From positions 1-64,000 of the IMG/VR virus record IMGVR_UViG_3300023443_000190: a stretch of DNA of 64,000 nucleotides; one strand, 5' to 3'. The notes below the pieces were generated by a model. The model saw only the letters and a list, made by a program, of their open reading frames with translations, searched no databases and was not told where the DNA came from. Below are positions 34,050 to 52,583 of this stretch, piece by piece. The DNA is from a virus. The position numbers and the translations under genes are program-made. Every line of letters begins with the position of its first letter. Positions within the stretch are counted from its first letter, which is position 1.

Positions 34050-35051
34050 TTATGCCTCCTGCCGTAGAGACTGGGCGGCTTCTAGCCAGTTGAAAAACTT
34101 ATTCCGCCAGACCTGTAGGCCACCGCGTTCTTTACCGCTTTTTATGGCCTTCTCCCTAAGAAAGTCCAGTCGAAGCGGATCTTTGAGGAACTTAATCCCG
34201 TCTGAAAAGTCGGAGTATTCTCGACACAAATACCCGTCAGCCCCGTGATTGATTTGTTCGATCTGGCCGCCCTTCATATCGACAATAGGAATACACCCAG
34301 CCGCCTGGGCCTCACATACCGTTCTACCATAAGACTCGGTTAGTTTGGAGGACGAGTGCAAGTGAGCAGTCCAGCGATGAAACAAGTTTCGATTCTTCCA
34401 CGCCGGTTCGTAAAACTTGGCATTTTCCCCGACCGCTTGACTTAATGGTTCGACGCGATGGTCTGGGCAGCCGACAAACTCCCATTGAACGTCGGGATGA
34501 TTCTTGTGTAGGTAAGCGTAGAAATCGTAGAGATCATCAAGGCTCCATTTCTCGCGACCCATGTGACCGGACGTGCAAAGCTTACCGATCACAATCCCTT
34601 CGGCGCGTGGAATCGGCTCTGTCTGGGCGCAAGGTTGATAAAAGACATTCTCGGTATTTTGATCGGTTAGGACGGCTAAGTGCATTGAGACCGACCATTC
34701 GATTGTGCATTTCTTCCTGGCGGATCGGTGTGTCTTTAATGCCGAATGTTCGTAGAAGATCGAGATAAAATCCCTCGACAGAAAGTTCGGCATCGTAGAC
34801 GCGCCAGTGTTGTGAAAGATTACAACGTCTAGTGCGACAGATTCCAGATAGGCAGGCGTGATCTTACTCACCCGAGATATCTGACAACCGTAATGAGCCT
34901 TTTCTTCGTCCGAACATTCTCCGTCGCCAGCATTGACGAAAAGGATTTCGTGGTCCCAGTCTGGCAAGGCGCGTTTAATCGAATAGACGCAAGCCCCAGT
35001 TCCGCCGCAGATGTTTGGGATGTTAGCTATTTGGAGTAGCTTCATGGTCAT
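34050..35051 (-). CDS. GT4-type glycosyltransferase
   Basis: This 333-residue protein shows the two Rossmann domains of GT-B enzymes: GGTGACVYSIKRAL at the start and TESYGRTVCEAQAAGCIPIV near residue 235, the E-x7-E-like site of GT4. It should transfer a sugar from an activated donor. It belongs to the sugar-modification island. Confidence 0.75.
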   Translation of the reverse strand: MTMKLLQIANIPNICGGTGACVYSIKRALPDWDHEILFVNAGDGECSDEEKAHYGCQISRVSKITPAYLESVALDVVIFHNTGASTMPNFLSRDFISIFYEHSALKTHRSARKKCTIEWSVSMHLAVLTDQNTENVFYQPCAQTEPIPRAEGIVIGKLCTSGHMGREKWSLDDLYDFYAYLHKNHPDVQWEFVGCPDHRVEPLSQAVGENAKFYEPAWKNRNLFHRWTAHLHSSSKLTESYGRTVCEAQAAGCIPIVDMKGGQIEQINHGADGYLCREYSDFSDGIKFLKDPLRLDFLREKAIKSGKERGGLQVWRNKFFNWLEAAQSLRQEA

Positions 35052-35502
35052 GGTATTTACTATTCACTAGATCAAGGGCTACGATACAACCAAATTCAAA
35101 ATCCCCTAACGGAGAATCGCCATTGGGTGCGTTGCAAAGCTGGGGTTGCATTCTTTTACTGTATTCTTCCCACAAGCCCATATCTTCCAATTTTATTTGA
35201 ACCGGAAAAAATGACCCATAGTATTTACTAAAACGAGGAACTTCTGCTGGGCCACAGCTTGAGCAATATGGGTATGACAACGGTTCGTCCCCATCGGATT
35301 TTCGGGCTTGATTTTTCTCAAAATGTAATATCCAATCCTCGTTTTCCAAACTTTCTGGCGGAAAGAACTGTCTAACCATGCACTTCTTTGGGTAGTTTTT
35401 TGTGCCTTTTATGGGGATTCCCCAAAACGCCACCCATTTCCAACCAAAGAATTCCTGTGCAATGGCCCGATCTAAATCTGTTGTGTTCGGAACAATCATC
35501 AT
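35023..35502 (-). CDS. Phage ABA-sandwich-like protein
   Basis: This 159-residue protein starts with an Asp-Leu-Asp-Arg helix and GWKWVAF, then has a proline-rich middle, SSCGPAEVPRFSKYYG and a final strand (FGCIVALDL). This recalls a small phage-specific ABA-sandwich family. The C-terminus overlaps the next gene by 29 bases. Confidence 0.5.
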   Translation of the reverse strand: MMIVPNTTDLDRAIAQEFFGWKWVAFWGIPIKGTKNYPKKCMVRQFFPPESLENEDWILHFEKNQARKSDGDEPLSYPYCSSCGPAEVPRFSKYYGSFFPVQIKLEDMGLWEEYSKRMQPQLCNAPNGDSPLGDFEFGCIVALDLVNSKYHDHEATPNS

Positions 35503-36026
35503 ATTCTCTTAATCTCCCCCCCAGCAGTTAAAACCCTGATTTCTATAAGTTGCCAGTTTTCTTTGAAGTGACGTTTGGGTTTGGCGGTTTGTTGTCCGCC
35601 TTTGAACTTTTTATGATAGCCGCCTTTGGGGTCGATCCCAACAGTCTCAAACTTTCGATAACCGTCCCGTAATAGCCAGCAAACAGCCGTCTCTCCAACC
35701 GACATGATTCTACCGAAGTATGGTAGAGATCGTTCTGGAGCGGTGTGTAGACAGTAAGTTCTGACTTTATCCCTTGGAGCTGGGCTGGCTTCATGCGGAA
35801 CTTTCTTTTTCCCCCTAACGTCGCAATGCAACCAAGTCGGCAACACAATCGTACCGACACCATCCATTGTATCAATTTCTCCAAATGCTGACATATCATT
35901 AACGAACAACCAGTCGGCGTTTGGATAATAATTCACAGCCCCGTTCAGACAGGCTACCTTGCCATCGAATTCAATCTGTCGAAAGGACGGGCCTTTTCCG
36001 ACGATCAGGACTTTTTCACGATCCAT
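35499..36026 (-). CDS. Maf/DUF115-like protein
   Basis: This 175-residue protein has KVLIVGKGPSFRQIE then CLNGAVNYYPNADWLFVND, the start of DUF115/MptE-like Rossmann proteins related to flagellin-modifying Maf. A later FETVGIDPKGGY fits the GvD motif. GGAG six bases before ATG 36026 sets the start. It is one of three such proteins in the island. Confidence 0.65.
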   Translation of the reverse strand: MDREKVLIVGKGPSFRQIEFDGKVACLNGAVNYYPNADWLFVNDMSAFGEIDTMDGVGTIVLPTWLHCDVRGKKKVPHEASPAPRDKVRTYCLHTAPERSLPYFGRIMSVGETAVCWLLRDGYRKFETVGIDPKGGYHKKFKGGQQTAKPKRHFKENWQLIEIRVLTAGGEIKRI

Positions 36027-36046
36027 CGAGAACTCCATTTCTGTGT

Positions 36047-36919
36047 TTACGCGAGTTCCAGTAGAGGTTTGATTGATTTCCACCACTGGGAGTCACGGAT
36101 GTAATCGTGCCATATTTCTTGTGCCAGCTTACCCATCTGTATGGCCTTAGACACCGTGCATCCATCGATAATGTCTAGTGCTGCGACTGTGGATTTGACA
36201 TGAAAAGAAAATAATCTCCAATCGACAGTATGTGAAAAAGGCTTAATAAATCCCGGCGACACGATAACCGGAACCCGACCTGCCGCCATAGCCTCGAAGA
36301 TTCTACGGGTCGATGGGCCTGCTCCCCTTGGACACAAAGCGAAGTGAGAGTTAAGAAGATTGTCGCAAAATTCCAAGCCATATCGAGTTTTCTTTTTTTG
36401 ATTTAGCCCTCTGCATGACGACCCTTTTCTCGGTATTGTGTTTGCATGATCGCCAAATCTTTTTATTACTTGTCCAATCATTTTTTTACGTTTCCATACC
36501 GACGTGTCTCCGCAAAACGACACAAGGTGTTGTGGTTTAACCGTTTCTGCCGAAAATAAATTGTAGCTCGGCGATCTTTGCGGAAACGGAACTGAATATG
36601 TATTGATTTCGTTATTTTGCTTTATAACCGATGGACGAAACATTACGCAATCAGCATAAAACCTTTCAGTTGAATCGGTGATTTCGAAGATTATATGCTT
36701 TTTTTCGTTGCCGTGCCAATAAGCCAGTTTCCTACACCCCTTCTTAATTCTCGATGGAACTTTAGCCACAGGAAAATATGTATTGCGCAGCCATCTCGGA
36801 TAGAAATACCAATCACAATCTTCTGGGCCGAATTGTTGAAATATCTCTGCTTTTAGAGCTAGGACAGGTTTTCTAAAATCTAGCCCACGAAATTTGGCCT
36901 CGTAAAAATAACACTTCAT
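36047..36919 (-). CDS. GT47/exostosin-like glycosyltransferase
   Basis: This 290-residue protein has the exostosin-type core HFALCPRGAGPSTRRIFEAM followed by AAGRVPVIVSP. The N-terminal part is more divergent. It should be a glycosyltransferase of the island. The start ATG 36919 is preferred; a GTG two codons upstream is possible. Confidence 0.75.
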   Translation of the reverse strand: MKCYFYEAKFRGLDFRKPVLALKAEIFQQFGPEDCDWYFYPRWLRNTYFPVAKVPSRIKKGCRKLAYWHGNEKKHIIFEITDSTERFYADCVMFRPSVIKQNNEINTYSVPFPQRSPSYNLFSAETVKPQHLVSFCGDTSVWKRKKMIGQVIKRFGDHANTIPRKGSSCRGLNQKKKTRYGLEFCDNLLNSHFALCPRGAGPSTRRIFEAMAAGRVPVIVSPGFIKPFSHTVDWRLFSFHVKSTVAALDIIDGCTVSKAIQMGKLAQEIWHDYIRDSQWWKSIKPLLELA

Positions 36920-36934
36920 TGACACTTACTTTCA

Positions 36935-37051: not shown

Positions 37052-37454
37052 TACAGATGTTCTTTAGTCGGTGTCTTCTCATGGCATACCAAACGTAATG
37101 TCCCCGATTCTCCAATGATTTTGAAATCATGTCCTGAATGTTTTTGTGCAGGTAGCCGTCAATTACGTTAATTGTTCCTCTTGGGTGAAATCCCATCTCA
37201 TGTTCCAGAAATTGCTTTGCGTACAACTTTCCATAACCCGCCTTATGCAAGTAATCGACGACATTCCGTCGTTTTCTCATTCCGAATTCTTGGCAAGTTT
37301 TTAATATCTCTTTGTCTGGAAACCACAAATCCATTCTAATGTTGAATGAATCAATCTTGAAGAACGGGATATTGCTGTTTAACAAAAGTTGTCTGCGCAA
37401 AGTCGTCTTACCATCATTTCCGCCCCCGCTAATCCAAAGTATTATTGTTTTCAC
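37032..37454 (-). CDS. P-loop kinase-like protein
   Basis: This 140-residue protein has a Walker A motif (SGGGNDGKTT) near residues 9-18, then FFKIDSFNIR and a long helical part. It resembles small nucleotide or sugar kinases. GTG 37454 overlaps the preceding stop (GTGA). The substrate is unknown. Confidence 0.65.
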   Translation of the reverse strand: MKTIILWISGGGNDGKTTLRRQLLLNSNIPFFKIDSFNIRMDLWFPDKEILKTCQEFGMRKRRNVVDYLHKAGYGKLYAKQFLEHEMGFHPRGTINVIDGYLHKNIQDMISKSLENRGHYVWYAMRRHRLKNICNDNNWQ

Positions 37455-38236
37455 GCAACACACCAATCTAAAGCGTGTTTCCAGTATTCATGCAAGCCGC
37501 CGTGAACCCGCCAGTCGTTCGATCCTTTTCGGCCAAGTTCCAAACCATGCTCAAGGTGTTCTTTGCAAACAGCCCCAGCCTCGCAAGCCGACTTCAATTC
37601 GTTCTCCCACAAGTAGGAAAGATGATGGTGAGGGTTGTACCAAGGCTGGTCGGTCTCAAAAGTGTAATGAAGCAGTTTAGTATCCGATTGCCAGTGATTA
37701 AAATCGTTCCAGCGTTTCGTCATGTGTTTGACTGGAAACCAATAACCGTGCATGATCCATTGATATGCAAAGACTACTTTTTTGCCGGAATGCGGCACCC
37801 CTTTCGACTGAATGTGTTCCGATATCCATTCCTTGTTCCAAAGGGTTCTGTCGGCATCACCACAATTTATGACCATAACCGATGTTTGTGGAACCTCTTC
37901 TCCTATAGATTCTGCCGTCTTGTCGTTGTGAAAAGCCAAACATGCAGCCTGATACATCCCTTTCCCAAAGTCCCACAATTCCTGAATGTCTCCCAAGACG
38001 AGTTGATCGGCATCCATGTAAATCGCCCTGCCTTCAAAGTTGCAGTATTGCGGAATCAAGAATCGGCGTAGAGAAAACCCAGTCGCCTGATGCACATACT
38101 TTGAAATCAACCAAGGCTCATAATCTCCCATCGGAATGAATTCGACTTCCGCCTGGGTTCTCTTGCGTATGGAATGTTCGAGGACAAGTTCGGCGACTTT
38201 TGTTTTGGTTTCCGTCCCGCAAAAGATTCGGATCAT
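37451..38236 (-). CDS. GT8-family glycosyltransferase
   Basis: This 261-residue protein has AIYMDADQLVLGDIQELW near residue 71, the DxD metal-binding motif of GT-A family 8, and HYTFETDQPWY near the C-terminal third. It should use a UDP-sugar. GGAGAAAGAG precedes the ATG. Confidence 0.8.
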   Translation of the reverse strand: MIRIFCGTETKTKVAELVLEHSIRKRTQAEVEFIPMGDYEPWLISKYVHQATGFSLRRFLIPQYCNFEGRAIYMDADQLVLGDIQELWDFGKGMYQAACLAFHNDKTAESIGEEVPQTSVMVINCGDADRTLWNKEWISEHIQSKGVPHSGKKVVFAYQWIMHGYWFPVKHMTKRWNDFNHWQSDTKLLHYTFETDQPWYNPHHHLSYLWENELKSACEAGAVCKEHLEHGLELGRKGSNDWRVHGGLHEYWKHALDWCVA

Positions 38237-40429: not shown

Positions 40430-40981
40430 ATGTCTCACAAAGAACAGTTGGAATTCTGTGACCGAGTCAAGTCCACGTTTCCAGATTATTTCAACAAGTC
40501 TCGCGTTTTGGAGATAGGATCGAGAAATCTAAACGGTTCGATAAGAGGGCTGTTTACAGAATGTGACTATGTCGGCATCGATTGCATGAAAGGCAAAGAC
40601 GTCGATGTTGTTTGCCTGGCTCATAAATATGAGGATGACCAAGAATCATTCGATGTTGTCTGTTGTGCCGAATCGCTGGAACACGATCCTTATGCTCCAC
40701 AAACAATTCTCTCCATGCTGTCATTTCTCAAGTCAGGAGGGTTGTTCTTCTGTACTTGCGCTTCGACTGGGCGAAAGGAACATGGAACTGTCAGACAAAA
40801 AAAGTCGTGGAAACTTTGCGGGCCAGACCACAAGTATTACAAGAATGTCAAGCTAAGCACTTTGGTTCAATGGATGCTTTACTGCGGGTTTGATTTCGAT
40901 TCGTTGCATTACGAATACAACGAATCATCAAGCGATCTTTATTGCTATGCAATCAAAGCGATATCACCACATTCCTTTTGA
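40430..40981 (+). CDS. SAM-dependent methyltransferase
   Basis: This 183-residue protein has RVLEIGSRNLNG and YVGIDCMKGKDVDVV, then FDVVCCAESLEHDP, the methyltransferase motifs I and II. The ATG is one base after the previous stop. It ends inside the convergent FkbM gene (29-base overlap). Confidence 0.75.
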   Translation: MSHKEQLEFCDRVKSTFPDYFNKSRVLEIGSRNLNGSIRGLFTECDYVGIDCMKGKDVDVVCLAHKYEDDQESFDVVCCAESLEHDPYAPQTILSMLSFLKSGGLFFCTCASTGRKEHGTVRQKKSWKLCGPDHKYYKNVKLSTLVQWMLYCGFDFDSLHYEYNESSSDLYCYAIKAISPHSF

Positions 40982-41618
40982 AGAGACCGACTAAATCGCC
41001 ACCGATCTCCTGTAGGATTCGACCAGTCGTTTTGAATGCTCTTGTCGTTGAACCTACGCTGTGTTCTTCTAATATGATGACTGGTCGGTGTTTACGCAGG
41101 ACTTCCATCGCTCCGTCAACTACTTCCCATTCCATACCTTGGACATCAATCTTTATGAGAGACAGTCCAGATTTATCGAAAAAATCCTCAATGCTATCGA
41201 GCGAGATCATGTCTGCCGTTATCGCCGTCTTTTCAAAGTCCATTAAATGCCGACGATGACCGCTACTCTTTTGGCCATTCGGATCGCACATGTGAAGCTG
41301 CCCTTCATGATCGCCCACAGCTTTTTGTGTTGCATTGACCTCAAAAGGTGTGTTAGCCATTAAGCATTCATAGGTATCGTAAAATGGCTCAAAAGCCAAC
41401 ACCTTCGGAAAATACTGAGCAATCCGACGCGAGAACAAGCCAATGTTTGCACCAACATCGATAGCACAACCGGAACTTGTTCCAGTCGTCCGATTCGAGA
41501 TCGCATTCATCGCACATTGGATTTCCAGTTCCATGTAACACTTGTGTCTTCCAGCCTTAATCAACGGAGTCCATTCCGTGTCTTCGTCTGGAACGTATAA
41601 TTTGCCTACTTTTCTCAT
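40953..41618 (-). CDS. FkbM-family methyltransferase
   Basis: This 221-residue protein has the FkbM layout: CAIDVGANIGLFSRRIA, VLAFEPFYDTYECL, then LIKIDVQGMEWEVVDGA. FkbM enzymes methylate sugar or other hydroxyl groups. It overlaps the convergent plus-strand gene and is coupled to the 2OG oxygenase upstream. Confidence 0.8.
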   Translation of the reverse strand: MRKVGKLYVPDEDTEWTPLIKAGRHKCYMELEIQCAMNAISNRTTGTSSGCAIDVGANIGLFSRRIAQYFPKVLAFEPFYDTYECLMANTPFEVNATQKAVGDHEGQLHMCDPNGQKSSGHRRHLMDFEKTAITADMISLDSIEDFFDKSGLSLIKIDVQGMEWEVVDGAMEVLRKHRPVIILEEHSVGSTTRAFKTTGRILQEIGGDLVGLFKRNVVISL

Positions 41619-42361
41619 GTCTTGAATAAAGGCTTTCTTTGTTCGGCGACGACATTGATGTAACGTCTGGGATATTCGCTTTTACCGCGAACAGAAACAC
41701 CGTGAATCGAATGCTTTGAATTCATAAATCCCACCAATACGTTCTGTTTGTATTTCACAGTCTTAACCAATTCCACGTCATCTTCTCTGATCTGGTTTTG
41801 TGGACTGTGTTTGAACTTTCCGCCCTTGTGTTGGTACAAACCGAAGTCGCCGCCAGTGCTATTGTCGGCTGGGTCTCTGAAATACCAGCACAAGGCATAA
41901 AGTTTTCTCACGCTATCGAAGTGAGGGCCTCGAACAGTAGTTCCGCCGCTAGTCGGAGTGTTGATTACAAACTGACAATCTGTCGTTAATTCCTGATCGA
42001 TAGATTTGTCACGAATTGCAGGGTACGAATCAATTCTGCGAGCATATTCATTCGAGCCGTGACATTCTGCAAAAGGCTTAGCAAATATCTGGAGCATTGC
42101 ATGGAAAAACAGTCCAGTTGATATTTCCATAAACAGACTTTTCCAGACAGCATTCACAGATTTCGATTCTAAGGCATCCAGGCACGACAATCTCACCGCA
42201 ATGTTTTCCCCAGCCTCGCTCGAATTTATGTGTGGAAATCTTGAAAACAGGTATTGGTAGAGATCAAAGTCATTCAATGGGTCTTCAATCACAAAATGAG
42301 GATTCTCCCCGTCGATGTATTCCACTTTTGGGGTTTTCTGTAGCAAGTTGTAATTAAGCAT
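41615..42361 (-). CDS. 2-oxoglutarate/Fe(II) oxygenase
   Basis: This 248-residue protein has a metal-binding HxD (GPHFDSVRK) and a distal His with Arg (SIHGVSVRGKSEYPRRY), the marks of 2-oxoglutarate-dependent oxygenases. It may hydroxylate protein or sugar substrates of the island. AAGGTCG precedes the ATG. Confidence 0.75.
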   Translation of the reverse strand: MLNYNLLQKTPKVEYIDGENPHFVIEDPLNDFDLYQYLFSRFPHINSSEAGENIAVRLSCLDALESKSVNAVWKSLFMEISTGLFFHAMLQIFAKPFAECHGSNEYARRIDSYPAIRDKSIDQELTTDCQFVINTPTSGGTTVRGPHFDSVRKLYALCWYFRDPADNSTGGDFGLYQHKGGKFKHSPQNQIREDDVELVKTVKYKQNVLVGFMNSKHSIHGVSVRGKSEYPRRYINVVAEQRKPLFKT

Positions 42362-43109
42362 GATCGACCTTCAGCAACTTCTCGGATACGTCTTTGAGGT
42401 ATTTACCCTGAGTCGGTTGGATGAATTTTGAATCTTGTTTTTTCTTCATGGCGCAGACAATTATTACATTGGGATACTTCGCACCAGTCCTGCGAGTCTC
42501 ATCCATCGAGACAGATTGAATGGCTTCCGTAATTTCATTTGACTTTGTTTTTGGAATTATCTCTTTCATATTATTTGGTGGTACTGACAAGATTGACCTT
42601 TCAAATCCCCAGCGGTTTGCCAGAGAAAACATTACTATCTCGTAATTATTTGCACGGGCAAGATCAACAAACAATATGGGGTGAAAGCTGTAGAAAGAAT
42701 GGTTGATCCAATTGATGAACGGCAGGATGTGAAGCATGATTCCGCCGACTTTGCAATATCCATGGGCATTATAAAATATCGCGTCTTGGTTAAAACAATG
42801 CTCGCCAGTTCCATTATTTGTTACCAAGTCATGTTGTGAGATCATCATCGCCCTTTGATTCAAATCACTTAATTCAGCGCCGTGTTTTCCATTCACATCA
42901 AGACATTTATAGTCGGAATATCCCATCCCATCGTAAAATACTTTCGACGACTGACCGTTGATTTTTGACGGCTTTGCAATCCCGACGGGAACCCTGAAAT
43001 CATCAGGCAAATTGATTGTCTGGTTGCCGAATTCCAAAACGGACGGACTCCCCTGAAAACTCGGTGTCAAAGCAGCAACAGTTCTCGCCATAATCGGATT
43101 AAAAGTCAT
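42354..43109 (-). CDS. Methyltransferase-like protein
   Basis: This 251-residue protein starts with SVLEFGNQTINL and has KCLDVNGKHGAELSDLNQ, which resemble SAM-binding motifs, and FVDLARANNYEIV later. Motif I is degenerate, so activity is uncertain. It lies between two oxygenases. Confidence 0.5.
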   Translation of the reverse strand: MTFNPIMARTVAALTPSFQGSPSVLEFGNQTINLPDDFRVPVGIAKPSKINGQSSKVFYDGMGYSDYKCLDVNGKHGAELSDLNQRAMMISQHDLVTNNGTGEHCFNQDAIFYNAHGYCKVGGIMLHILPFINWINHSFYSFHPILFVDLARANNYEIVMFSLANRWGFERSILSVPPNNMKEIIPKTKSNEITEAIQSVSMDETRRTGAKYPNVIIVCAMKKKQDSKFIQPTQGKYLKDVSEKLLKVDHA

Positions 43110-43723
43110 CGAGTATTCCGTTCGTAAATTGTGGAATGATACTCACTGAAACCAGGTGGCTTCTCTTTTGTGTAATAGTAAGCGGCAATGCTTTTTCGAT
43201 CTTTCTTGACTGGTTCGGGCACGCCATGCCAAGCATTTTCATTGTAAGGAAAAGCGACCAGTCGGTTAAATAAAGGTGCGATAGATGCCGTGTGTGGTTT
43301 TCGCCCAAGTATCAATTCGCCTTTATCATCCTCTTTCCATTTATCATTGAGAAAGAGAAGTGCATTCACGCGACGATAAAGACCTTCCTTATTTTGATTG
43401 AAATCGACGTGCATATCTAGTTTTGTGCCAACAGGCATCCAATGAAGGCCACCGTCAAAGTTGGTTTCGTCGCAAACTAAACCAAGAATCCCAAACTCTC
43501 TCTCCAGAGTTTCAATCATGGCTTTTGATTTCAGAATCTCCGCTATCCTGATGGTGCTATCAGGGAACCCACTGCACATAGAAAGTTTTCCACAAGAACT
43601 TGCATACCACAAAGAATCGTCTTTATCAGGCCATTCAGAAACAACGTTGTGGAGTCTCGACACTGTTAAACGATCATCCCAGACCGTATGGCGAAATGGC
43701 CAGCTAGAAGGAAAGTGGATCAA
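43106..43723 (-). CDS. 2-oxoglutarate/Fe(II) oxygenase, prolyl hydroxylase-like
   Basis: This 205-residue protein has LDMHVDFN (HxD), a long strand (ALLFLNDKW), and WHGVPEPVKKDRKSIAAYYY (distal His and Arg). It belongs to the prolyl 4-hydroxylase-like group. TTG is the likely start, with GGGAGATG upstream. Confidence 0.75.
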   Translation of the reverse strand: MIHFPSSWPFRHTVWDDRLTVSRLHNVVSEWPDKDDSLWYASSCGKLSMCSGFPDSTIRIAEILKSKAMIETLEREFGILGLVCDETNFDGGLHWMPVGTKLDMHVDFNQNKEGLYRRVNALLFLNDKWKEDDKGELILGRKPHTASIAPLFNRLVAFPYNENAWHGVPEPVKKDRKSIAAYYYTKEKPPGFSEYHSTIYERNTR

Positions 43724-44505
43724 TTAAACATCTCCCTGACTCTTCCGTGTTCGCCTTTGTTATGCGTAATGTAATGTTTGAGAAGCGAATACTGGACAAC
43801 ATGCCCGTCGTTCTTTGATACTCGACCAACGATGTCTCGACAGTCAAATGTACGGGTCGCTTGATAATAGACAAAAGAATCATCCCATCGATTCCAAGCT
43901 TTGAATTGACCGGAATCATAATATCCTCTCATCTTTTCAAAGACCCGCTTGCCTTTTCGCTGCATGTTGTATCCAACAATCCCACATTCAGGAACTAAAC
44001 GCGGCCCCTTGAGGAAGAAGCCGTCATGTCGTTCATACAAAGACCGAATGTTTTTTGTCTCAACCTGACCCTTGAATATACAGTCGCAATCGATCCAGAT
44101 CATGTCTTTTGACTTTGGGAATTGGACAATCGCGGCATTCAGCGTCACAACCTTACGGAACCAACGGCAACAGTTGCGATTGAACCAACTCCAATGGCAG
44201 CCTTTGACGTGATTGTTGCTCGGAGGTCTTCCTGCGTCTTTGCAATCGCAAGGCTTGGTTTCTCCACCCCATTCTTCTGGAATCACATCTTTGTTGGATT
44301 GAAGCCAGTCGTGCAAATAAAGGTCTTCATCCAAGTCGTAGAGGAAGATATTGTCGTTTCGCGGCAAGAGTACAATATCAGAACCCTTGAATCCTTCATG
44401 CCCGACAAACATGATTCCATCGGTATTAGTCCTGACGAACGACTCAAGCAATTTCTCGCCTGAGACTTCGTAGAGTTCTTTGGTGAATGACGTTACCCAG
44501 ATCAT
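43720..44505 (-). CDS. Glycosyltransferase, GT-A-like
   Basis: This 261-residue protein has a GT-A-like nucleotide-sugar fold: WVTSFTKELYEVSG, DMIWIDCDCIF (DxD-like), then CGIVGYNMQRKG. A central CDCKDAG and CHWSW stretch is cysteine-rich. It probably transfers a sugar. Confidence 0.6.
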   Translation of the reverse strand: MIWVTSFTKELYEVSGEKLLESFVRTNTDGIMFVGHEGFKGSDIVLLPRNDNIFLYDLDEDLYLHDWLQSNKDVIPEEWGGETKPCDCKDAGRPPSNNHVKGCHWSWFNRNCCRWFRKVVTLNAAIVQFPKSKDMIWIDCDCIFKGQVETKNIRSLYERHDGFFLKGPRLVPECGIVGYNMQRKGKRVFEKMRGYYDSGQFKAWNRWDDSFVYYQATRTFDCRDIVGRVSKNDGHVVQYSLLKHYITHNKGEHGRVREMFN

Positions 44506-44714
44506 TGTTCATACATCTTTCTTGTGACTTCTATCGCCCATTCTTGTGATTCTTTTATGTCAACCAGTTCGTCAAGAAGAATGGAAATCCCTTTGGCAAT
44601 GGCGATGGACAAATTGAGTGTAGTATCATCTTTTCTATCTTCCCAATGACTCCCATCGACGTTTCCACACTTTAATTCACCTGAGAGCTTTCTTATGTCG
44701 GACACGCTATTCAC
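44502..44714 (-). CDS. Small helical protein
   Basis: This 70-residue protein is mainly helical (NLSIAIAKGISILLDELV). GTG 44714 overlaps the end of the Maf-like gene (GTGAATAG). A longer start at 44771 has no ribosome site. No family is assigned. Confidence 0.5.
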   Translation of the reverse strand: MNSVSDIRKLSGELKCGNVDGSHWEDRKDDTTLNLSIAIAKGISILLDELVDIKESQEWAIEVTRKMYEQ

Positions 44715-45414
44715 TGTAATCCCTTTCTCGAACATATCCCGAAGTGTCTTCCGGCTCAGGAAATCCATCAAGATTGTGGAACTTCTTCAGCCGTTCGTAA
44801 TCTTCAGTCTCCCGACCCAGACCTAAGAACGGAGACAAAGTATAAAACCTGATCCCGTAATGATCAGTCAACTTATCTCTCACAATAGAAGAACATTCGT
44901 AGTATTCGTCGTAGATGTCCTGTGGTGAGAGACCGTGTCGCCTGACATGCTGCTCGTGGGCGTGATGATCTCCTCCAAACGAGTTCATGTCACATCCGAC
45001 GAGAATGGCCGTCTTACAGCCCATTTTGGCAGCCAGGCACATTGCTGTCGCCTGAATGCCACGACCGCAGTAAAGGCGGTTATCTTCTGAGGTGAGCGGG
45101 GAATAGTCGTGAAGGTCTTTGTTGCTTGTGAAGATACAGACATCGGGATCGTTTTCCTTGAGTCGCCTGCTCCATGAGTCGGGCGGGCCTTTTGCTTTGG
45201 TAATCCATGAGTCGGATTTTATGCTTCCTTCTGGTATTATTTCAGGGTGAATTGTCAGATGAAACTTAGTCTTAAAATGGCGGTAAGACTGATTCAATCC
45301 AATCGACCTTCTGTTACGAAAAAAGTGAGGATCAAATACGCGAAGGGACGGCCCTGTACCGATTATGTAGCAGGTTTGACCCTCCCATCCACCATGCAAT
45401 GAAGTCACTTTCAT
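44707..45414 (-). CDS. Maf/DUF115-like protein
   Basis: This 235-residue protein starts CYIIGTGPSLRVFD then SIGLNQSYRHF, and later ILVGCDMNSFGGDHHAH, the phage DUF115 relative. It is likely to act with glycosyltransferases on proteins or glycans. The start overlaps the GT2 gene. Confidence 0.7.
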   Translation of the reverse strand: MKVTSLHGGWEGQTCYIIGTGPSLRVFDPHFFRNRRSIGLNQSYRHFKTKFHLTIHPEIIPEGSIKSDSWITKAKGPPDSWSRRLKENDPDVCIFTSNKDLHDYSPLTSEDNRLYCGRGIQATAMCLAAKMGCKTAILVGCDMNSFGGDHHAHEQHVRRHGLSPQDIYDEYYECSSIVRDKLTDHYGIRFYTLSPFLGLGRETEDYERLKKFHNLDGFPEPEDTSGYVRERDYSE

Positions 45415-46019
45415 AATCCATACTTCTCCTTAAACGCAGCCTTATCAGCCGCAATCAACTCCCCTCGATTTGGACACAGCTTCTTATTGTGGGCAGTCTT
45501 ATGACCGAGATGTTTGAGAGGTAAATCGACTTGACATAATGAACCGCCTTCTTTCAAGGCTCTGATCTGAAAGTCGGTGTCTTGGAAGTAGAGTTTGAAC
45601 CGTTCGTCGAATCCGCCGAGTTTTGTCCAAAGCGATTTGCTGAAGCAAAGGAACCAGCCTTGAAGCAGTTTGCGACCCTCATAAAGAGGTTCACGCCTTT
45701 TCTTCGCCCCGACGATTTCGTTTTCAGATTTTGGATTGCATAGATCAATGAATTTTCCTTTGCAGATTATGTCGTTATTCATAAGGATTATGTTTTTGCG
45801 ATTAGACAGCCTTATTCCAAGGTTCCAAGCAGCAGTCAGTCCTCGCTTGTCGTTTTTGATAGCAAACACATTCTTTGCGATCACCTTAGAGTAATAATCT
45901 TGGCTTGGCCCATCATCTATTATAAAAATATCAACATCACGTTCGTGTTTTCTGATTCCTTCAATCAGACTTATTGTTAAATCATCGTTTCCTCGCTGTG
46001 GTATCACAATCGTCGTCAT
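45411..46019 (-). CDS. GT2-family glycosyltransferase
   Basis: This 202-residue protein has the GT2 features TIVIPQRGNDD, IFIIDDGPSQDYY, GLTAAWNLGI, IILMNNDI and GGFDERFKLYFQDTDF. It is shorter than many GT2 enzymes but complete in motifs. It is coupled to the Maf-like gene on each side. Confidence 0.85.
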   Translation of the reverse strand: MTTIVIPQRGNDDLTISLIEGIRKHERDVDIFIIDDGPSQDYYSKVIAKNVFAIKNDKRGLTAAWNLGIRLSNRKNIILMNNDIICKGKFIDLCNPKSENEIVGAKKRREPLYEGRKLLQGWFLCFSKSLWTKLGGFDERFKLYFQDTDFQIRALKEGGSLCQVDLPLKHLGHKTAHNKKLCPNRGELIAADKAAFKEKYGL

Positions 46020-47167
46020 CCTATTTCATCCACCTTCATTTCGCGGTTCAGTTCGAGAGCCTTTTGAGCAATCGGATCAGGCTTTTTCTCCGGTTCTTCT
46101 TTCCCACCTTTATCAAGCACACCCCTACCGTAGATGTCCATGTCTTTGTGAAATGGAAGTCCTTCGTCCGGCTTTGGCTCGACTGTTAATCGTCCCGACG
46201 TATACTCTTCTAACACATTCCCTACCTGTTTGTCAATAGCATTTGCAGCTTCCACTTCGGTCATGTAAGGGAAGAACGCATTCAGTCTGGAATTTGGCGT
46301 ACAGGAAACAATCTTCACGCCGTTTAACGAATGGTTTCTTCGCGACAATCTGAGGTATTGGATTCGATCCCAATAATGAACGTCGGTTGTAACAGCCGAA
46401 CTGAACCGCTTAACTTCTTCGCAGCCATACTGGGCTTCGCGTTCGACGGCTTCCATTGCTGCGGCGACTTCTTCGTTGTCTTTTCCAATACCTTTCGCCT
46501 TACACATATCCCTGAAATCGATCAGGCGATCAGACCAGTAGCATTCAGGTTGCTTTTCGCCAGTCTGTTTCTCAAACTTGACTTGTCCATTCTCATACTC
46601 CACGCCTTTTTTGCGAGCCAAATCTATTTGTGCCTGACTTGGTCTCACAATCATATCCACACCGACGCAGTAGAAAGTACGAAACCCCAACTGAAAACAG
46701 ATATCAATGGCTTGGATAAAGCTATCCAGAACATTCAGAATGGATTTGGCTTTGATGTCAAAGAAGTGTTCGTAATAACGGTGTTCCACATCGACAAAGA
46801 ACGTATTCGGGCAATCGCACATTTTGTACGAGGTACCAGGAACCAAGTCTAAATGCTTTCCGCCTTTGAGAAACTTGGTAATCGAACTGTCCTTGAACAT
46901 CGTCCCGAACCAACGAGGGGTCGGATCATAGCTTGTCCAGAAAGTTGGCTTGATTAAATAACCTTCACCGTCACGTCCTCTGCCTGCGTAGTTCATTGCC
47001 ATTTTGCAGGCTGGTGATCTTTGGACGATCTCCGTATCAATTGATCGGATGCCTGGCCCAGCACCTACGATCCAGACGGATGAGGCTTCAGTTCCGGCAT
47101 ATTGATTTTTGAATTGTTCCGAGCAGTCGTATTTACGTTTATCCGTAGTGCATCTGTAAAAGAGCAT
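46016..47167 (-). CDS. Maf/DUF115-like protein (long)
   Basis: This 383-residue protein has VWIVGAGPGIRSIDTEIV near residue 29, a TFWTSYDPTPRWFG segment, and FRTFYCVGVDMIV near 200, matching the DUF115/Maf layout. Maf enzymes glycosylate Ser/Thr of flagellin. GGGGGAATGG precedes the ATG. It lies 19 bases downstream of the serine-rich tail gene, the most suggestive pair in the island. Confidence 0.7.
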   Translation of the reverse strand: MLFYRCTTDKRKYDCSEQFKNQYAGTEASSVWIVGAGPGIRSIDTEIVQRSPACKMAMNYAGRGRDGEGYLIKPTFWTSYDPTPRWFGTMFKDSSITKFLKGGKHLDLVPGTSYKMCDCPNTFFVDVEHRYYEHFFDIKAKSILNVLDSFIQAIDICFQLGFRTFYCVGVDMIVRPSQAQIDLARKKGVEYENGQVKFEKQTGEKQPECYWSDRLIDFRDMCKAKGIGKDNEEVAAAMEAVEREAQYGCEEVKRFSSAVTTDVHYWDRIQYLRLSRRNHSLNGVKIVSCTPNSRLNAFFPYMTEVEAANAIDKQVGNVLEEYTSGRLTVEPKPDEGLPFHKDMDIYGRGVLDKGGKEEPEKKPDPIAQKALELNREMKVDEIG

Positions 47168-47186: not shown

Positions 47187-48980
47187 TTATGGTGGTTCTG
47201 TGGCTTCTTTATCGCTACTGGCCGCCGACGAACTTGCGGCTGAAGAACTTGCGGCTGAAGATGGTGCAGCCGAACTCGCCCGTGACGATTCCAGACGACT
47301 TTGGGAAGCCGCCGAAGACGCCGCCGACTTGTCAGCCGAAGAATCTGCCGATGATTGTATGCGATCTGAGCTGTCGCCACTAGATTGAACCAGATCGGAG
47401 CTATCGCCACTGGATTTTTTAGCTGAACTATCTGCCGATGATTGAATCTGATCCGAACTTAATCCCGAAGATGCAACCAGATCAGAACTTGCTGCCGATG
47501 ATGCCTGATCCGAACTCAACGCAGATGATACTGCGCCAGAACTTGCCGCCGACGACGCTCGATCCGAACTTAATGCCGACGACGCAAGTGCGTCCGAACT
47601 TAATGCCGAACTGCGAGCCGAACTGGCTGCGGAAGAGGCAAGTGCGTCCGAACTTCTCGCTGAAGAATCCGCAGATGATTTATCGGAACTGGCACCAGAT
47701 GCACTCAATGCACTCGACACGGCGCCCGAACTTCTTATAGAGGATTCGTCTATTGTAGAATGCTGAGAATCCCGAGACTCGCTAGGAGGATCTTCGCCGT
47801 CGCCCAAATCGTCTGGATCGGGTATCTCCCATCTCTGGTTTTCGGGAGCATTGGGAAACTGCAAGTCTTCCGGTCCAATCGTAATGTCGAAGATTGGCTT
47901 ATGATCGAATTGAACTCTGATTCTGTCGAATTGACCGTTCGCAATCAGATTAGCGTTTCTGTCAAGCAAACGAATCCAGCCCAAATGCGGAAGCGGAAAT
48001 ATCCCATCGTATTCCACGCGAAACGTATATCGGACTGTGGCTTGTGCAAACTGAGAAAAGAAGAAACTCTGGAAGTTTACTGCATCGTGATTCCGCCTGA
48101 TTTCTGGAGCGAATATCTCGATTACCCTTTCACCGTGCAACGCAATAGAAGGAATATGCTTGAAATTCCATCGTGACCTGTAAGGGTTGACTGCTCCACC
48201 GTAAATATATCCCCCAGTCAACAACATCCGGTTGAAAAGAAGGCTTCGATCTTGCTGTTGGGTAAGATTTCTGGCGTTCACCCCTTCCTGATACGAAGCA
48301 ATTGTCGAGAATCTTCTGTTGATGAAATAGAGCTGGCCGAATTCATTGACGCCAACACTCATCATACGGGCAATAGAAGAAAGCCTTCTGTAAAGTTCGG
48401 CAACCGACTCTTCGCCTCTGACCACCATTGACTGAAAACCGGACAAAATAGGCGGTGATTCAATCGATCCAATCACAACATGCGTTTGGGCAGCGACATA
48501 TCGATCGAACAACAATTTTACGACAGATTCCGGTTGGCCGACTGTATCGACGGTCTGAAAGGTATGGTCGGGATCGTTCGGAAAATAATCTGAGTTCGCA
48601 AATCTATGCGGTTTCCCGCTGCCAGCATTTGCAAATGCGCCTGGAAACACTTCACCCAATTCCGCCCACATACCCTGTAAGCTGATCTGGGCACCTTTCG
48701 GCGAGGAATGGTCAACGTTTTCGACTCGACCGAAATACCATCTCGTTCCCGCCGTAAACTCGAAAGCGATCCAGTCGCCAATCTGAACGTCATTTCGATC
48801 TGCAAAGCTGTCTCTTAGCGTAATACTTCCAGCCCCGTCGCCTCCCATCCTTAGCTTTTCAAACCAAGCATCCGTAACCCGACTGTTACCACCCTTTTCG
48901 CTTAGGACTTGCTTGAGCGTAACGGTATCGTTGAAGAAGTGCAGGATTCTGCGTTGATATAAACTTGAGTCCCAAGGCAT
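47187..48980 (-). CDS. Tail protein with Ser-rich C-terminal domain
   Basis: This 597-residue protein has a beta-rich N-terminal ~395 residues (ITLRDSFADRND, SSIARMMSVGVNEFGQLYF) resembling tail-tip or baseplate proteins of the gpD type. The last ~200 residues are about 40 percent Ser, with Ala and Asp, in repeating SSDALASS and SSADSS units. This tail should be extended or low-complexity, and could be multiply O-glycosylated. GGAGACTAA precedes the ATG. It heads the operon into the sugar genes. Confidence 0.75.
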   Translation of the reverse strand: MPWDSSLYQRRILHFFNDTVTLKQVLSEKGGNSRVTDAWFEKLRMGGDGAGSITLRDSFADRNDVQIGDWIAFEFTAGTRWYFGRVENVDHSSPKGAQISLQGMWAELGEVFPGAFANAGSGKPHRFANSDYFPNDPDHTFQTVDTVGQPESVVKLLFDRYVAAQTHVVIGSIESPPILSGFQSMVVRGEESVAELYRRLSSIARMMSVGVNEFGQLYFINRRFSTIASYQEGVNARNLTQQQDRSLLFNRMLLTGGYIYGGAVNPYRSRWNFKHIPSIALHGERVIEIFAPEIRRNHDAVNFQSFFFSQFAQATVRYTFRVEYDGIFPLPHLGWIRLLDRNANLIANGQFDRIRVQFDHKPIFDITIGPEDLQFPNAPENQRWEIPDPDDLGDGEDPPSESRDSQHSTIDESSIRSSGAVSSALSASGASSDKSSADSSARSSDALASSAASSARSSALSSDALASSALSSDRASSAASSGAVSSALSSDQASSAASSDLVASSGLSSDQIQSSADSSAKKSSGDSSDLVQSSGDSSDRIQSSADSSADKSAASSAASQSRLESSRASSAAPSSAASSSAASSSAASSDKEATEPP

Positions 48981-49442
48981 TTAGTCTCCTGGCGCCGTCG
49001 AGAACATATTGGGATTTTCTGCCACTATGTCACAGGAATAAGTTGGTTCGGCTCGATCATTGTCTCCGTAACCGAAAACCAGATTCTCTGCATAGCAAGA
49101 CTTGAAACTTCGGAAGGTTTCCGAAGGTGCGTCATTGAGAATAAAAGTCTGGTACTTATCGGAATCCGTATCCACATTTAACAACACCTTCAGATTCTCA
49201 AATGCCGTCACGATATCGACATCCTCGAATATCTTTGTCTTTGCCGCATTCTTAACTAAAGCACCTGCTATCGAAAACCGCATCGCATTCAGGCTGTGTC
49301 CTGTTGTTAAAATGCCGTCTGCCAAAGGGGTTTTTGACTTATGAACATCCCAGTCTATTGCAAGATTCAAAACCTTGGCAGGTGTGGGAAGTGCGGAGAA
49401 CACACCATTCTTGAATATGCCTGGATTCCATGTGACAGCCAT
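48981..49442 (-). CDS. Distal tail protein-like
   Basis: This 153-residue protein has a beta-sandwich pattern (FSIAGALVKNAAKT, SDKYQTFILND, YAENLVFGYGDND). It sits between the tape measure and the tail-tip gene, where siphovirus distal tail proteins usually occur. TAATG joins it to the tape measure gene. The family assignment is by context. Confidence 0.55.
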   Translation of the reverse strand: MAVTWNPGIFKNGVFSALPTPAKVLNLAIDWDVHKSKTPLADGILTTGHSLNAMRFSIAGALVKNAAKTKIFEDVDIVTAFENLKVLLNVDTDSDKYQTFILNDAPSETFRSFKSCYAENLVFGYGDNDRAEPTYSCDIVAENPNMFSTAPGD

Positions 49443-52400
49443 TAGCTTACAGTTCCCCTCTTGCCAGCCCGACCTCTTCTCATTCGACTTGCACTTACCT
49501 CGCGCGTCACTAAGCTGGCGATTTCCTGTGGGTTTACTTCCCCGTTGAAGTTCTGGATGATGTTTCCGATCTGACTGGAGTTGTCGGTGTTATCGATGTT
49601 TGTAGCACGGATATTTCCACCTTGCTGGCGCGACTGGCCTACTGGGCCGAACAGGAAGTTTGCACCATTCTGTTTGAAGTTATCCCAGAACTGTCGTCTG
49701 CGTTCGATGTCCTGAAGACGTCTTTGTTTTCTTTGTTCCCCAGTTCCGAATTGCAGTTTTCGCTGTTGGATGTTCTGAAGGCGTCCTTTGCGTTCTTTAT
49801 CTGCAAAGTCGAAGTCGATTCGGTTCCTGTGAGCATCGATTACACCCTGCCTTTGGACTGCTCGGTCGGCACGAATCTTTTGTCTTTCCTCATCTGTAAT
49901 GGGAGGCCTTCTTATTCGTGGTCTTTTTGCAACGACCGGGCCTCCAGCCACTCCTCCGACTCCAGCAATCGCAGCCGCCCCAAATGCACCGCCGGCGCCA
50001 CCGCCGACTGCCGCTAATTGCATTTTAGCAGCTTGTAATTGAATCTGTGCCGCAGACATTTGAATCTGACCTGCACCCCGACGTGTAAAGATACGTTCGA
50101 TCTCTTCCTGTGTCCTTTGGGCTGCCTGAAGGAATTTGAATGCAGAGTTCAGGTTTTGATTGGCAGCACTACGCTGGAATTCTAATTGCTGCCTTTGTTT
50201 CAATGCGGCGACTTGTTGTTCGGGTTTTCCAGCCGCACCAGCCGCTCTTGCTTCGCCCGTCAATTGTAATAATCTTCCACGAACGATGCCCCGTTCTCGT
50301 GACTTGCCAATTCTACCAAAGAATCTTTCTATGTTTTTGTCCTGTCCTCCACCAAGCCCACGAAATCTCGCAAATTGTTTCGCGCGGCCTTGCTGTTGTT
50401 CCGTCACTTTTGCTGCGAATCCCAACCTTGCCCCGAATATGCTGGCAGCAAAACCAGACTTGCTGGCTGCAAGTTGTCGATCGAGTCTTTCGGCATCTCT
50501 CGCCGCATCTCGTGTTGCTTTCTTTGTATCTTGTGCCGCTTTATTTTGCGTCTTTAACTGCTTTTTTAGGCTTTCTTCGGTCCTGAGGATTACACGAAGT
50601 TTATTTTCAAGTGCGACCGACTCATCCTCAAATTGTTTTTTTATTAGAACGCCAATCTGAAATTTTCTTTCTAAAGCACGCTTTTCTTCCGCCAAAGCCC
50701 TTTTCTTTTCTTGTTCTTCGAACTGAAGCAGTTGAATCTTTCCAGCCGACTTAGCCTCAAACCTAGCCTCTATTTTTGATAAACCGACTCGCTCACGAAT
50801 GAATTTACCGCGACGTTCTTCCTCTTTCTCAATAGCGCGTTTCTCAGCCCTCAATTTTTTGAATGCCCTAAATAATGGAGCTACATTCTCCTGAAATTTC
50901 TCCTTCGCAATGTTTTGTAGATCAATGTCTCCCGCAGCAACAGCTATTCGCTGTTCTAAGAGAGATCGTTGTTCCCCAATTCGGCCTTTTACTCCAGTCA
51001 GTCTCTTTCGTACATCAAACTTCTTTCCGGCAAACCCCTTCAGTCCTGCGCGGGCTTCTCCTGTAAATAATCTCTCTATGCGCCTTGCCGATCCTTCTAT
51101 TAGTCGAAAACCCCTCATTTCTCTGCTAAGGTTTTTGAATACATTCTGTACATTGCCAAGAGCTAATTCCAGTTTTGCCATCTCTTCTGATTCTGCCTCT
51201 GTGTCTACGCTAAGTTTTTTGAGTTCCTTTTGCAGATCTTTGATATTCTGAATTGCAGGTGCAAAGTTTTTATCTAATTTTTTTGGGTCGCCAAGCAAGT
51301 TTCCAAAGAATCCACGCTCGACGTCAACAAATTCCCCTTGACGACCGGCTTCAATAATGGCTTTATTACGCGCCTCTATCGCTTGTTTTAGCTGTGCCAC
51401 ATCTCTTTTTAGACCTGGCGTCACGGGCTTGAATTTTTCCCTTGCCCTTCTAGTTTCAACTTTAGTGCGAGCAGCTTCTAGCGTCGCCTCCTTATCGAAT
51501 AACGATTCCAGTGCTGCCTGTCGAGATGATGCAGAGCCGCGACGAAACAACTGGGTTTTACGAATTTTTATCTCTCTCTGAATAGTTGTAATTTTTCCTC
51601 TGGCAGTCTCGATGTCTTCCCTTTTAAGAAATATCTTTGTGGCGCCTTCTCGTTCAGAAGCTTCGCGAATCTTTCTGAGTCTTGACAATCGCTCATTCAC
51701 TAATTTTATGCTGTTCGCAGTTTCTTTAGCTGTCTTCGATGCCTTCGACATACTAAATGCCATAGTTCCAAAAGAGGCGGCGGCTAATCCAACCAATGCT
51801 ATAATTCCACCTTTCCCTCCGAACTGTGCTGCCAGAAAAGCGATATTGTTTGATGCCCCTCGAAATCCTGCAAAGGAAAAGTCCTCAATAGCTTGCTGAA
51901 CCTGAAATATGCTTTGTGTTGCCTTGCTGCTACGCTTGGACAATATATTCTGTTCTCTTTGTCTTTCTGCTCGCTGTGCAGGAGTTAAGCCAGTGCCACC
52001 AACGCCGCCAACGCCAACACCGCCTCCCCCAGCACCTCTTCTAGTACCAAGAGCAGACGCTAGATGAGCGCGAGCCGCAGATTTTCTTCTCGCTTCGACA
52101 ATTTGTATCTGTTTTATTTCAGCTCGCCTGCGCTTATTTAAGGAGGTCTTCTCAAGACGTTCAATCTCATTGAACATCGACCGTGACGAAGCAATGCGAT
52201 TGCCTCTCAATTTTTGATTCGCTCTGTTTTCCTCGGAAACCCTCTTTTCAAGTGCCTTTTTTTCGAGCTGGCGTATTTTATTGATCGTACTTTTTGCGGC
52301 TGTAAATCGCTTTTTGACACTACTGATTAAGTTTCTGTCAGCTTTAGCCGCGTCCCGCTTATCCTGACCAAAGATCGTGACGCCCTTGGATATTTCCTTT

Positions 52401-52543
52401 AATCGTTTCAGTGCCTTTTCGCTGATTTCGATGCGAGTTTTAAGTGGCTTTTGGACTATTTTCTCAACATCTTTACGGAACTTCTCCGCCTGCTTTTTGG
52501 CCTCAGCAGTAGAGATGGTCAGTTTGGCCTTGAGTTCGCCCAT
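49442..52543 (-). CDS. Tape measure protein
   Basis: This ~1,033-residue protein is mainly helical, with long coiled-coil stretches rich in Lys, Arg, Glu and Ala, and a hydrophobic segment near residues 248-265 (IIALVGLAAASFGTMAF). The size and location at the tail module are typical of tape measure proteins. At about 0.15 nm per residue the tail would be some 155 nm, an inferred figure. ATG 52543 follows a GTG. Confidence 0.85.
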   Translation of the reverse strand: MGELKAKLTISTAEAKKQAEKFRKDVEKIVQKPLKTRIEISEKALKRLKEISKGVTIFGQDKRDAAKADRNLISSVKKRFTAAKSTINKIRQLEKKALEKRVSEENRANQKLRGNRIASSRSMFNEIERLEKTSLNKRRRAEIKQIQIVEARRKSAARAHLASALGTRRGAGGGGVGVGGVGGTGLTPAQRAERQREQNILSKRSSKATQSIFQVQQAIEDFSFAGFRGASNNIAFLAAQFGGKGGIIALVGLAAASFGTMAFSMSKASKTAKETANSIKLVNERLSRLRKIREASEREGATKIFLKREDIETARGKITTIQREIKIRKTQLFRRGSASSRQAALESLFDKEATLEAARTKVETRRAREKFKPVTPGLKRDVAQLKQAIEARNKAIIEAGRQGEFVDVERGFFGNLLGDPKKLDKNFAPAIQNIKDLQKELKKLSVDTEAESEEMAKLELALGNVQNVFKNLSREMRGFRLIEGSARRIERLFTGEARAGLKGFAGKKFDVRKRLTGVKGRIGEQRSLLEQRIAVAAGDIDLQNIAKEKFQENVAPLFRAFKKLRAEKRAIEKEEERRGKFIRERVGLSKIEARFEAKSAGKIQLLQFEEQEKKRALAEEKRALERKFQIGVLIKKQFEDESVALENKLRVILRTEESLKKQLKTQNKAAQDTKKATRDAARDAERLDRQLAASKSGFAASIFGARLGFAAKVTEQQQGRAKQFARFRGLGGGQDKNIERFFGRIGKSRERGIVRGRLLQLTGEARAAGAAGKPEQQVAALKQRQQLEFQRSAANQNLNSAFKFLQAAQRTQEEIERIFTRRGAGQIQMSAAQIQLQAAKMQLAAVGGGAGGAFGAAAIAGVGGVAGGPVVAKRPRIRRPPITDEERQKIRADRAVQRQGVIDAHRNRIDFDFADKERKGRLQNIQQRKLQFGTGEQRKQRRLQDIERRRQFWDNFKQNGANFLFGPVGQSRQQGGNIRATNIDNTDNSSQIGNIIQNFNGEVNPQEIASLVTREVSASRMRRGRAGKRGTVS

Positions 52544-52583
52544 CACATATTCTCATAAAAATTGGTTTGTGTCTCACTTGCTG

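Follow-up and report, generated by a model that had tools for sequence, protein, structure and literature searches.

A serine-rich tail gene and a Maf/GT42-like transferase gene in one phage operon: a possible cassette for tail O-glycosylation

Does a phage whose tail gene ends in a long serine-rich region, directly in front of a series of sugar genes, attach glycans to its own tail? This question is raised by the gene at positions 47187-48980 of the stretch of DNA analyzed here (the window), which comprises 64,000 nucleotides and represents bases 1-64,000 of a virus record of 73,678 bp. The gene encodes a 597-aa protein on the minus strand, for which the initial annotation had described a final stretch of about 200 residues at about 40% Ser and a spacing of 19 nt to a DUF115-like gene. 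Our analysis reproduced its coordinates, strand, length, composition, and spacing. The Ser-rich arm and the DUF115-like gene (DUF115a) are linked in one operon, and the enzyme subfamily concerned has a Ser-rich partner as a rule. As judged from sequence, a phage-encoded enzyme-acceptor cassette that O-glycosylates the Ser-rich tail protein is the probable explanation, to which we assign a probability of about 0.68. That sugar is transferred to serine, which donor is used, how the steps follow each other, and what the glycan is for (stability, stealth, or adsorption) are inferences. The argument is based on the following features.

49442..52546, minus strand: probable tape-measure gene at the head of the tail operon; long coiled, Lys/Arg/Gln-rich product of 1034 aa (by length, composition, and position; no family match)
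48981..49442, minus strand: 153-aa tail gene with a 1-nt overlap with the tape-measure gene (no family match)
47187..48980, minus strand: Ser-rich tail protein, 597 aa, ATG start (tail role deduced from position)
47190..47789, minus strand: Ser-rich C-terminal arm (about residues 398-597), proposed O-glycan acceptor (40% Ser, 38 Ser-Ser pairs)
46016..47167, minus strand: DUF115a, Maf/GT42-like putative protein O-glycosyltransferase of the Ser-linked subfamily, 383 aa, ATG start (profile comparison, tree, partner rule)
45411..46019, minus strand: GT2 glycosyltransferase, proposed chain extension (PF00535 2.3e-6, above cut-off; 4-nt overlap)
44707..45414, minus strand: DUF115b, generic phage DUF115/GT42-like transferase (PF01973 5.5e-7, below gathering score; phrog_4603 'alpha-2,3-sialyltransferase' 8e-10; generic profile 145.5 bits)
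44502..44771, minus strand: small ORF called at 89 aa, although its real start probably lies more downstream (ORF call)
43720..44505, minus strand: 261-aa protein with a DCDC motif, possibly a GT-A glycosyltransferase (no family match)
43106..43723, minus strand: 2OG-Fe(II) oxygenase of the prolyl-4-hydroxylase type (PF13640 8.2e-16)
42354..43109, minus strand: 251-aa protein resembling a gene beside a DUF115 gene in L068 (sequence similarity, 1.3e-8)
41615..42361, minus strand: second 2OG-Fe(II) oxygenase-like protein (PF13640 0.0038, below cut-off)
40953..41618, minus strand: FkbM methyltransferase, end of the unbroken run; resembles its FkbM counterpart in the L223 island at 5.5e-6 (PF05050 6e-18)
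37451..38236, minus strand: GT8-like glycosyltransferase in the second part of the island (PF01501 3.3e-5)
36047..36925, minus strand: exostosin-type GT47 glycosyltransferase (PF03016 1.5e-17)
35499..36086, minus strand: DUF115c, third DUF115-like protein (generic DUF115 profile 4.6e-5; hhalign 93%)
34050..35051, minus strand: GT4-type glycosyltransferase (PF00534 1.5e-10)
33451..33870, minus strand: cupin (PF07883 3.7e-8)

The C-terminal arm of the 597-aa protein (residues 393-597) contains 83 Ser, 42 Ala, 20 Asp, and 2 Thr in 205 residues and is built of 9-10-residue units of the type SSDxxxSSAx. Its peak of 47% Ser per 60-residue window ranked first among 1,589 called ORFs from the window and 80+ phage loci. 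The arm makes use of each of the six Ser codons (TCG 24, AGT 21, TCT 15, TCA 11, TCC 6, and AGC 3), and the other two reading frames across it are interrupted by stops. Hence, the Ser richness is a property of the protein level. The same two observations count against functionless low-complexity drift via repeat slippage, with an adjacency to the enzyme gene that arose by chance. Some tandem DNA repeats in the gene and the orphan status of the protein would fit such drift, the repeats being short and diverged (period 15 in 2.1 copies; period 30 in 2-3 copies at 67-83% match). Since the arrangement comes back in numerous loci, always with this one enzyme subfamily, slippage and chance are already disfavored, and we regard them as extremely improbable.

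Residues 1-390 constitute a unique N-terminal part. No relatives of the Ser-rich tail protein were found in direct searches of phages, viral contigs, and 50 DUF115-bearing records, and the family search gave no significant match (phrog_7064 'tail protein', E-value 0.31). From its position behind the tape-measure gene we infer that the product is a tail protein. A role of the N-terminal part as tail hub stays a guess, because its predicted structure was unusable (pLDDT 33). As the tail protein has no detectable relatives, the linkage was tested via the enzyme DUF115a.

On the minus strand, an unbroken run of genes leads from the tape measure via the tail genes, DUF115a, the GT2 gene, DUF115b, and the oxygenases to the FkbM methyltransferase gene. 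TerL, a lambda-type portal gene, and head genes are located at the right end of the window. The consecutive gaps from the tape-measure gene down to the FkbM gene (40953) are -1, 0, +19, -4, -4, -65 (at a doubtful start), -4, -4, -4, -8, and -4 nt. Because the gaps only range from -65 to +19 nt, tail genes and sugar genes form one operon. The neighbors named by the initial annotation, i.e. DUF115a, the GT2 gene, and DUF115b, were found as described, whereas the two 2OG-Fe(II) oxygenases, the FkbM methyltransferase, and the third DUF115-like gene had escaped it. Further methyltransferases are present beyond the operon together with the GT8, GT47, and GT4 genes. The cupin of the window is homologous to cupins of three islands that contain a Ser-rich gene and DUF115a (L226 3e-19, L223 4e-19, and L222 9e-15).

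Such an island may also alter the host surface (LPS, capsule, or S-layer glycan), either against superinfection or for serotype, in which case its position behind the tail genes would be incidental and the arm merely hydrophilic. This is the usual interpretation of phage glycosyltransferase clusters, as in jumbo cyanophages (PMC7824862), and GT8, GT47, GT4, FkbM, and methyltransferases are typical of surface-glycan loci. However, a simple hydropathy scan predicted no membrane segment in the sugar genes of the operon, and no predicted membrane protein (flippase, polymerase, or GtrA/B-like) was found in the island. Moreover, the sugar genes belong to the late tail operon, and a modification of the host surface would not predict that the DUF115a subfamily tracks Ser-rich genes, as it does in 39/46 loci (see below). 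We therefore consider a modification of the host surface unlikely. The operon combines two 2OG-Fe(II) oxygenases with several glycosyltransferases, which would also be compatible with a hypermodification of the phage DNA by an oxygenase together with glycosyltransferases. This appears very improbable, as the oxygenase is of the prolyl-4-hydroxylase type (PF13640) without assignment to TET/JBP, the island is joined to the genes of the late tail operon, and the enzyme subfamily pairs with Ser-rich genes.

Other features of the window include a 4-kb stretch (about 52.6-56.5 kb) that contains only small ORFs without assignment besides an IS1-type transposase gene (55569-56420). This gene is located between the tape-measure and head genes, and its nearest plasmid matches, from alphaproteobacteria, are 35-39% identical. 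In the late region, genes for a LamG/concanavalin-like lectin domain protein (17284-18495) and a trypsin-like protease (9807-10547) have the same strand as the structural genes.

DUF115a has no direct Pfam match. Its kinship to the PF01973-type DUF115 proteins became apparent by profile comparison, with an hhalign probability of 91% and an E-value of 1e-6 against the phage DUF115 profile. When the DUF115a-subfamily profile was compared to the PDB, GT42 sialyltransferases were the sole matches at E < 0.1, with a weak E-value of 0.005. One Phycisphaerae member of the subfamily matches the families CST-I (PF06002, 0.007, below cut-off) and MptE-like. The generic phage DUF115 profile matched CstII (5e-6) and the pterin kinase MptE (5e-5), which is not a glycosyltransferase and sits in the same superfamily as the DUF115 proteins. 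Structure prediction of the DUF115 proteins, suggested in the initial annotation, was run for DUF115b. The model (pLDDT 72) had GT42 sialyltransferases as top PDB matches in Foldseek, but the similarity was weak (E 7e-3). For the catalytic His of CstII (His188), no invariant His was present in the matching stretch of the DUF115a-subfamily alignment. Taken together, these comparisons characterize DUF115a as a putative Maf/GT42-like transferase with weak similarity to GT42. The central domain of Maf enzymes is PF01973 and resembles Cst-II; these enzymes modify Ser/Thr of flagellin, and their donors are CMP-activated nonulosonic acids or, in some cases, Kdo (PMC11339370).

Single-protein searches with DUF115a, DUF115b, and TerL revealed no close relatives in viral contigs, and for DUF115a there were also none in genomes. 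A generic set of 80 viral loci (L006-L085) was obtained with a profile built from DUF115b and homologs of Caulobacter and Brevundimonas phages. Generic phage DUF115 genes are located in structural modules, where the recognized upstream neighbors mostly are head, connector, or tail genes and sugar-modifying enzymes are encoded downstream. None of 69 such loci had a real Ser-rich product beside the DUF115 gene. Two raw matches (L061 and L085) were rejected because they resulted from antisense reading of acidic genes. The first impression from the 80 loci, that DUF115 genes have no Ser-rich neighbors, was also discarded, since it is true of the generic subfamily only.

In the generic loci the DUF115/GT42-like gene comes immediately after head, connector, or decoration genes, and genes for glycosyl-, sulfo-, acetyl-, or methyltransferases come next. 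This arrangement is a candidate for a widespread virion-decoration set-up without Ser-rich acceptors. In the Caulobacter phage CcrColossus (L005 18833-23386, gp126-gp131), a DUF115-like gene directly follows the tail gene gp125 and precedes sugar-enzyme-like genes; the tail protein in front of it is not Ser-rich. This type of arrangement occurs in cultured Caulobacter phages and is thus experimentally accessible.

From the acceptor side, a repeat-pattern scan of viral contigs resulted in 11 independent records with Ser-rich virion-type proteins, and 38 chance-match records were used as controls. DUF115 was found in 3 of the 11 Ser-rich records, in which L223 and L226 are mutually related, compared to 0 of the 38 controls, which are unmatched for taxonomy or length (p 0.009). 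A DUF115 or GT2 gene was nearby in 5/11 records versus at most 2/38 controls (p 0.004). In L222 the gene order is tape measure, tail tip, Ser-rich protein, DUF115a, and then FkbM, GT8-like, and cytidylyltransferase (PF02348 8e-30) genes. The large phage L223 encodes a Ser-rich fibre with DUF115a starting 17 nt later. In another large phage, L236, which was found via the enzyme alone, the Ser-rich fibre is encoded 72 nt upstream of DUF115a. Two further Ser-rich records have adjacent sugar-transfer genes, namely a GT9 gene beside the Ser-rich gene in L229 and a gene of the Stealth type in L230, and Ser-rich head-region proteins are paired with GT2-type genes in L224 and L225.

The initial annotation had named Ser-rich tails without sugar genes in related phages as a case against its proposal, and such cases partly exist. 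In the 65-kb phage fragment G056, which encodes a Ser-rich fibre like that of G051, a DUF115 or GT2 gene is absent from the fragment, and in several other Ser-rich phage records (G054, G058/59, and G062) no sugar gene was detected near the fibre gene. A group of Ser/Ala-rich proteins that also resulted from the repeat pattern (L087, L088, L091, L101, L119, L148, L166, and about 30 similar loci in uncultured viral contigs) was set aside; they have a hydrophobic signal-like start and look unrelated. These proteins comprise 430-530 aa, with a signal-like N-terminus, a conserved start (QTYTQTYVDKCTGE), and a long SSAASSAAS region.

To follow the enzyme itself, we used an alignment of Ser-linked DUF115 homologs (A7, from L226 and L223), which contains no Ser-rich sequence. 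Searching genome contigs with A7 identified 13 loci, 10 of them titled Phycisphaerae, Phycisphaerales, or Phycisphaeraceae and 2 titled Verrucomicrobia. The remaining one, L249, is a near-identical locus in a probably mis-titled MAG. In 11 out of 11 Phycisphaerae-type loci, a Ser-rich partner gene, whose product reaches 43-82% Ser over 60 residues, begins at or shortly after the end of DUF115a, and most of these partners share the start [R/Q]Y[Y/F]LY[I/L]PVWA (YLYIPVWAT). The Phycisphaerae cassettes are located inside prophage tail modules downstream of the tape-measure gene (PF10145 1.4e-51 in L241). In L241 and L244 the tape measure is followed by a tail gene, a methyltransferase, DUF115a, and the Ser-rich gene. 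In the Verrucomicrobial locus L242 the Ser-rich gene lies alongside on the opposite strand. The DUF115a of this locus (6484-8526) has a C-terminal part that by eye resembles a 2OG oxygenase (no Pfam match), echoing the oxygenase gene in the operon of the window.

When the sample was widened to 397 Phycisphaerae genomes and the initial eight, 46 loci from 29 genomes were obtained. A Ser-rich gene was found directly downstream of DUF115a in 39 of these 46 loci (29 genomes), which do not represent 46 independent events because related prophages were counted separately. On the level of lineages in the first subfamily search, about 5 out of 6 had a Ser-rich partner. Among the remaining loci, 3 have a Ser-rich gene upstream within 1.5 kb and 1 has it alongside on the opposite strand; for the subfamily member L243/L259 no Ser-rich neighbor was present in the sequence examined. 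In contrast, the corresponding figure for the generic loci was 2/69 raw and 0/69 real (p about 5e-21 even with the raw artefacts). The Phycisphaerae genomes G107, G106, and G275 contain up to seven DUF115a matches each. The majority of these matches adjoin a Ser-rich gene, which suggests that such a genome has multiple related prophages or tail modules that became domesticated.

Does DUF115a of the window belong to this subfamily? Among all loci, its closest relatives are the DUF115 proteins of L226 and L223. A hold-out subfamily profile, built without the window protein, scored DUF115a at 44.0 bits compared to 22.5 bits by the generic profile, and DUF115b showed the opposite behavior (11.5 versus 145.5 bits). 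In a tree of 42 proteins, DUF115a grouped with 11 subfamily members (support 99/95, 100% of bootstrap trees). It forms a long branch in this tree; the grouping was also obtained in a previous tree with 61 rows. By these sequence-based criteria DUF115a belongs to a distinct Ser-linked subfamily. The search for related loci with a Ser-rich tail and a DUF115 gene, which the initial annotation had proposed, was strongly positive in the very subfamily that includes the enzyme of the window.

The Ser-rich partners share no homology with the tail protein of the window, and their N-terminal parts are not detectably related. That all of these otherwise unrelated acceptors are Ser-rich suggests that the arm is the substrate they share. 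Instead, the enzymes may decorate other virion proteins such as the capsid or tail tube, as in mycobacteriophages, and the arm may be an unmodified flexible linker or adhesin. Consistent with this, generic phage DUF115 genes lie behind head or connector genes without a Ser-rich product, Ser-rich fibres without sugar genes exist, and mycobacteriophage glycans are found at the C-termini of capsid and tail-tube proteins (Freeman et al. 2023, as cited in PMC12619734). Such a scheme leaves the pairing of one DUF115 subfamily with unrelated Ser-rich proteins unexplained, and seems rather unlikely to us.

If the enzyme and the arm form a cassette, DUF115a would attach the initial sugar to the arm's serines while the protein is still in the cytoplasm, ahead of tail assembly, in the way Maf acts on flagellin. 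As donor it may use an ulosonic or nonulosonic acid activated with CMP, or another nucleotide sugar related to these. No cytidylyltransferase was found in the whole 73.7-kb virus record, so any CMP donor would be supplied by the host. In L222 a phage cytidylyltransferase gene (16640-17380) lies in the same island as DUF115a and the Ser-rich tail protein and possibly serves CMP-sugar donor synthesis; the L223 phage likewise encodes a cytidylyltransferase. The GT2 enzyme, DUF115b, the oxygenases, and the methyltransferases of the operon would extend, trim, or cap the glycan. The tail would then be assembled with a mucin-like decorated arm, and this hydrated arm may serve for stability or as a shield, or may bind to the surface of the host.

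Genes of Maf enzymes are located close to that of their acceptor, flagellin. By profile comparison, DUF115a is related to the PF01973/Cst-II-like domain of the Maf flagellin glycosyltransferases (Maf_flag10, PF01973), which DUF115b matches below the gathering score, and the proposed cytoplasmic transfer to a protein assembled outside has its parallel in Maf (PMC11339370). Unlike Maf, the phage enzymes comprise 290-570 aa and appear to lack the domains that flank the central one in Maf, and the acceptor is a Ser-rich virion protein rather than flagellin; no flagellin gene was found among the annotated neighbors of DUF115a in the phage tail operon. The GT42 sialyltransferases CstI and CstII are the top PDB matches by profile and fold and have the GPSL, GxD, and P/S-S-L-F motifs in common with the phage proteins. 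However, the similarity is weak. The substrate of CstII is lipooligosaccharide, and the positions conserved in the phage subfamily do not include the catalytic His of CstII.

In bacterial adhesins of the serine-rich repeat glycoprotein type, a long Ser-rich region is encoded beside dedicated GtfA/GtfB transferases, which are GT4-type, and secretion depends on SecA2/SecY2. The window resembles these systems in that a Ser-rich repeat acceptor adjoins a transferase gene, and differs by its Maf/GT42-like enzyme and phage assembly. No accessory Sec gene was present among the annotated genes of the operon, and the adjacent enzyme is DUF115-like, not GtfA/GtfB. In the CcrColossus locus the DUF115-like gene gp126 also directly follows a tail gene and precedes sugar genes, but the tail protein is not Ser-rich and the enzyme belongs to the generic DUF115 subfamily. 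Mycobacteriophages encode glycosyltransferases that glycosylate virion proteins (Freeman et al. 2023, Cell Host Microbe 31:1216, as cited in PMC12619734), and the phage of the window encodes glycosyltransferases as well (GT2, GT47, and GT4). In those phages the glycans are at the C-termini of capsid and tail-tube proteins, and the account in the available excerpt of PMC12619734 describes neither a Ser-rich arm nor a DUF115a-type enzyme.

Protein glycosylation of tailed-phage virions is established in few systems. A dedicated Maf/GT42-like enzyme combined with an acceptor rich in serine appears to be a novel variation on the virion glycosylation known from phages. Where the relatives of the enzyme live hints at a planctomycete-verrucomicrobial host for the phage of the window. 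With about even odds, phages and prophages of planctomycete-verrucomicrobial bacteria carry a dedicated Maf/GT42-like transferase subfamily together with interchangeable, unrelated Ser-rich virion proteins and thereby equip the tail with a mucin-like glycan arm, the donor being supplied in some phages by a CMP-sugar synthetase of their own.

The cassette provides a directly testable model of a phage that modifies its own tail and predicts the glycan-bearing protein and residues. Annotators gain a rule for a gene family that otherwise tells them little. Should a simple Ser-rich sequence be all that the enzyme requires, it may become a tool for attaching glycans to serine. The recurrence of the pairing in uncultured large viruses and planctomycete proviruses suggests that these viruses give part of their own tails a coat of sugar.
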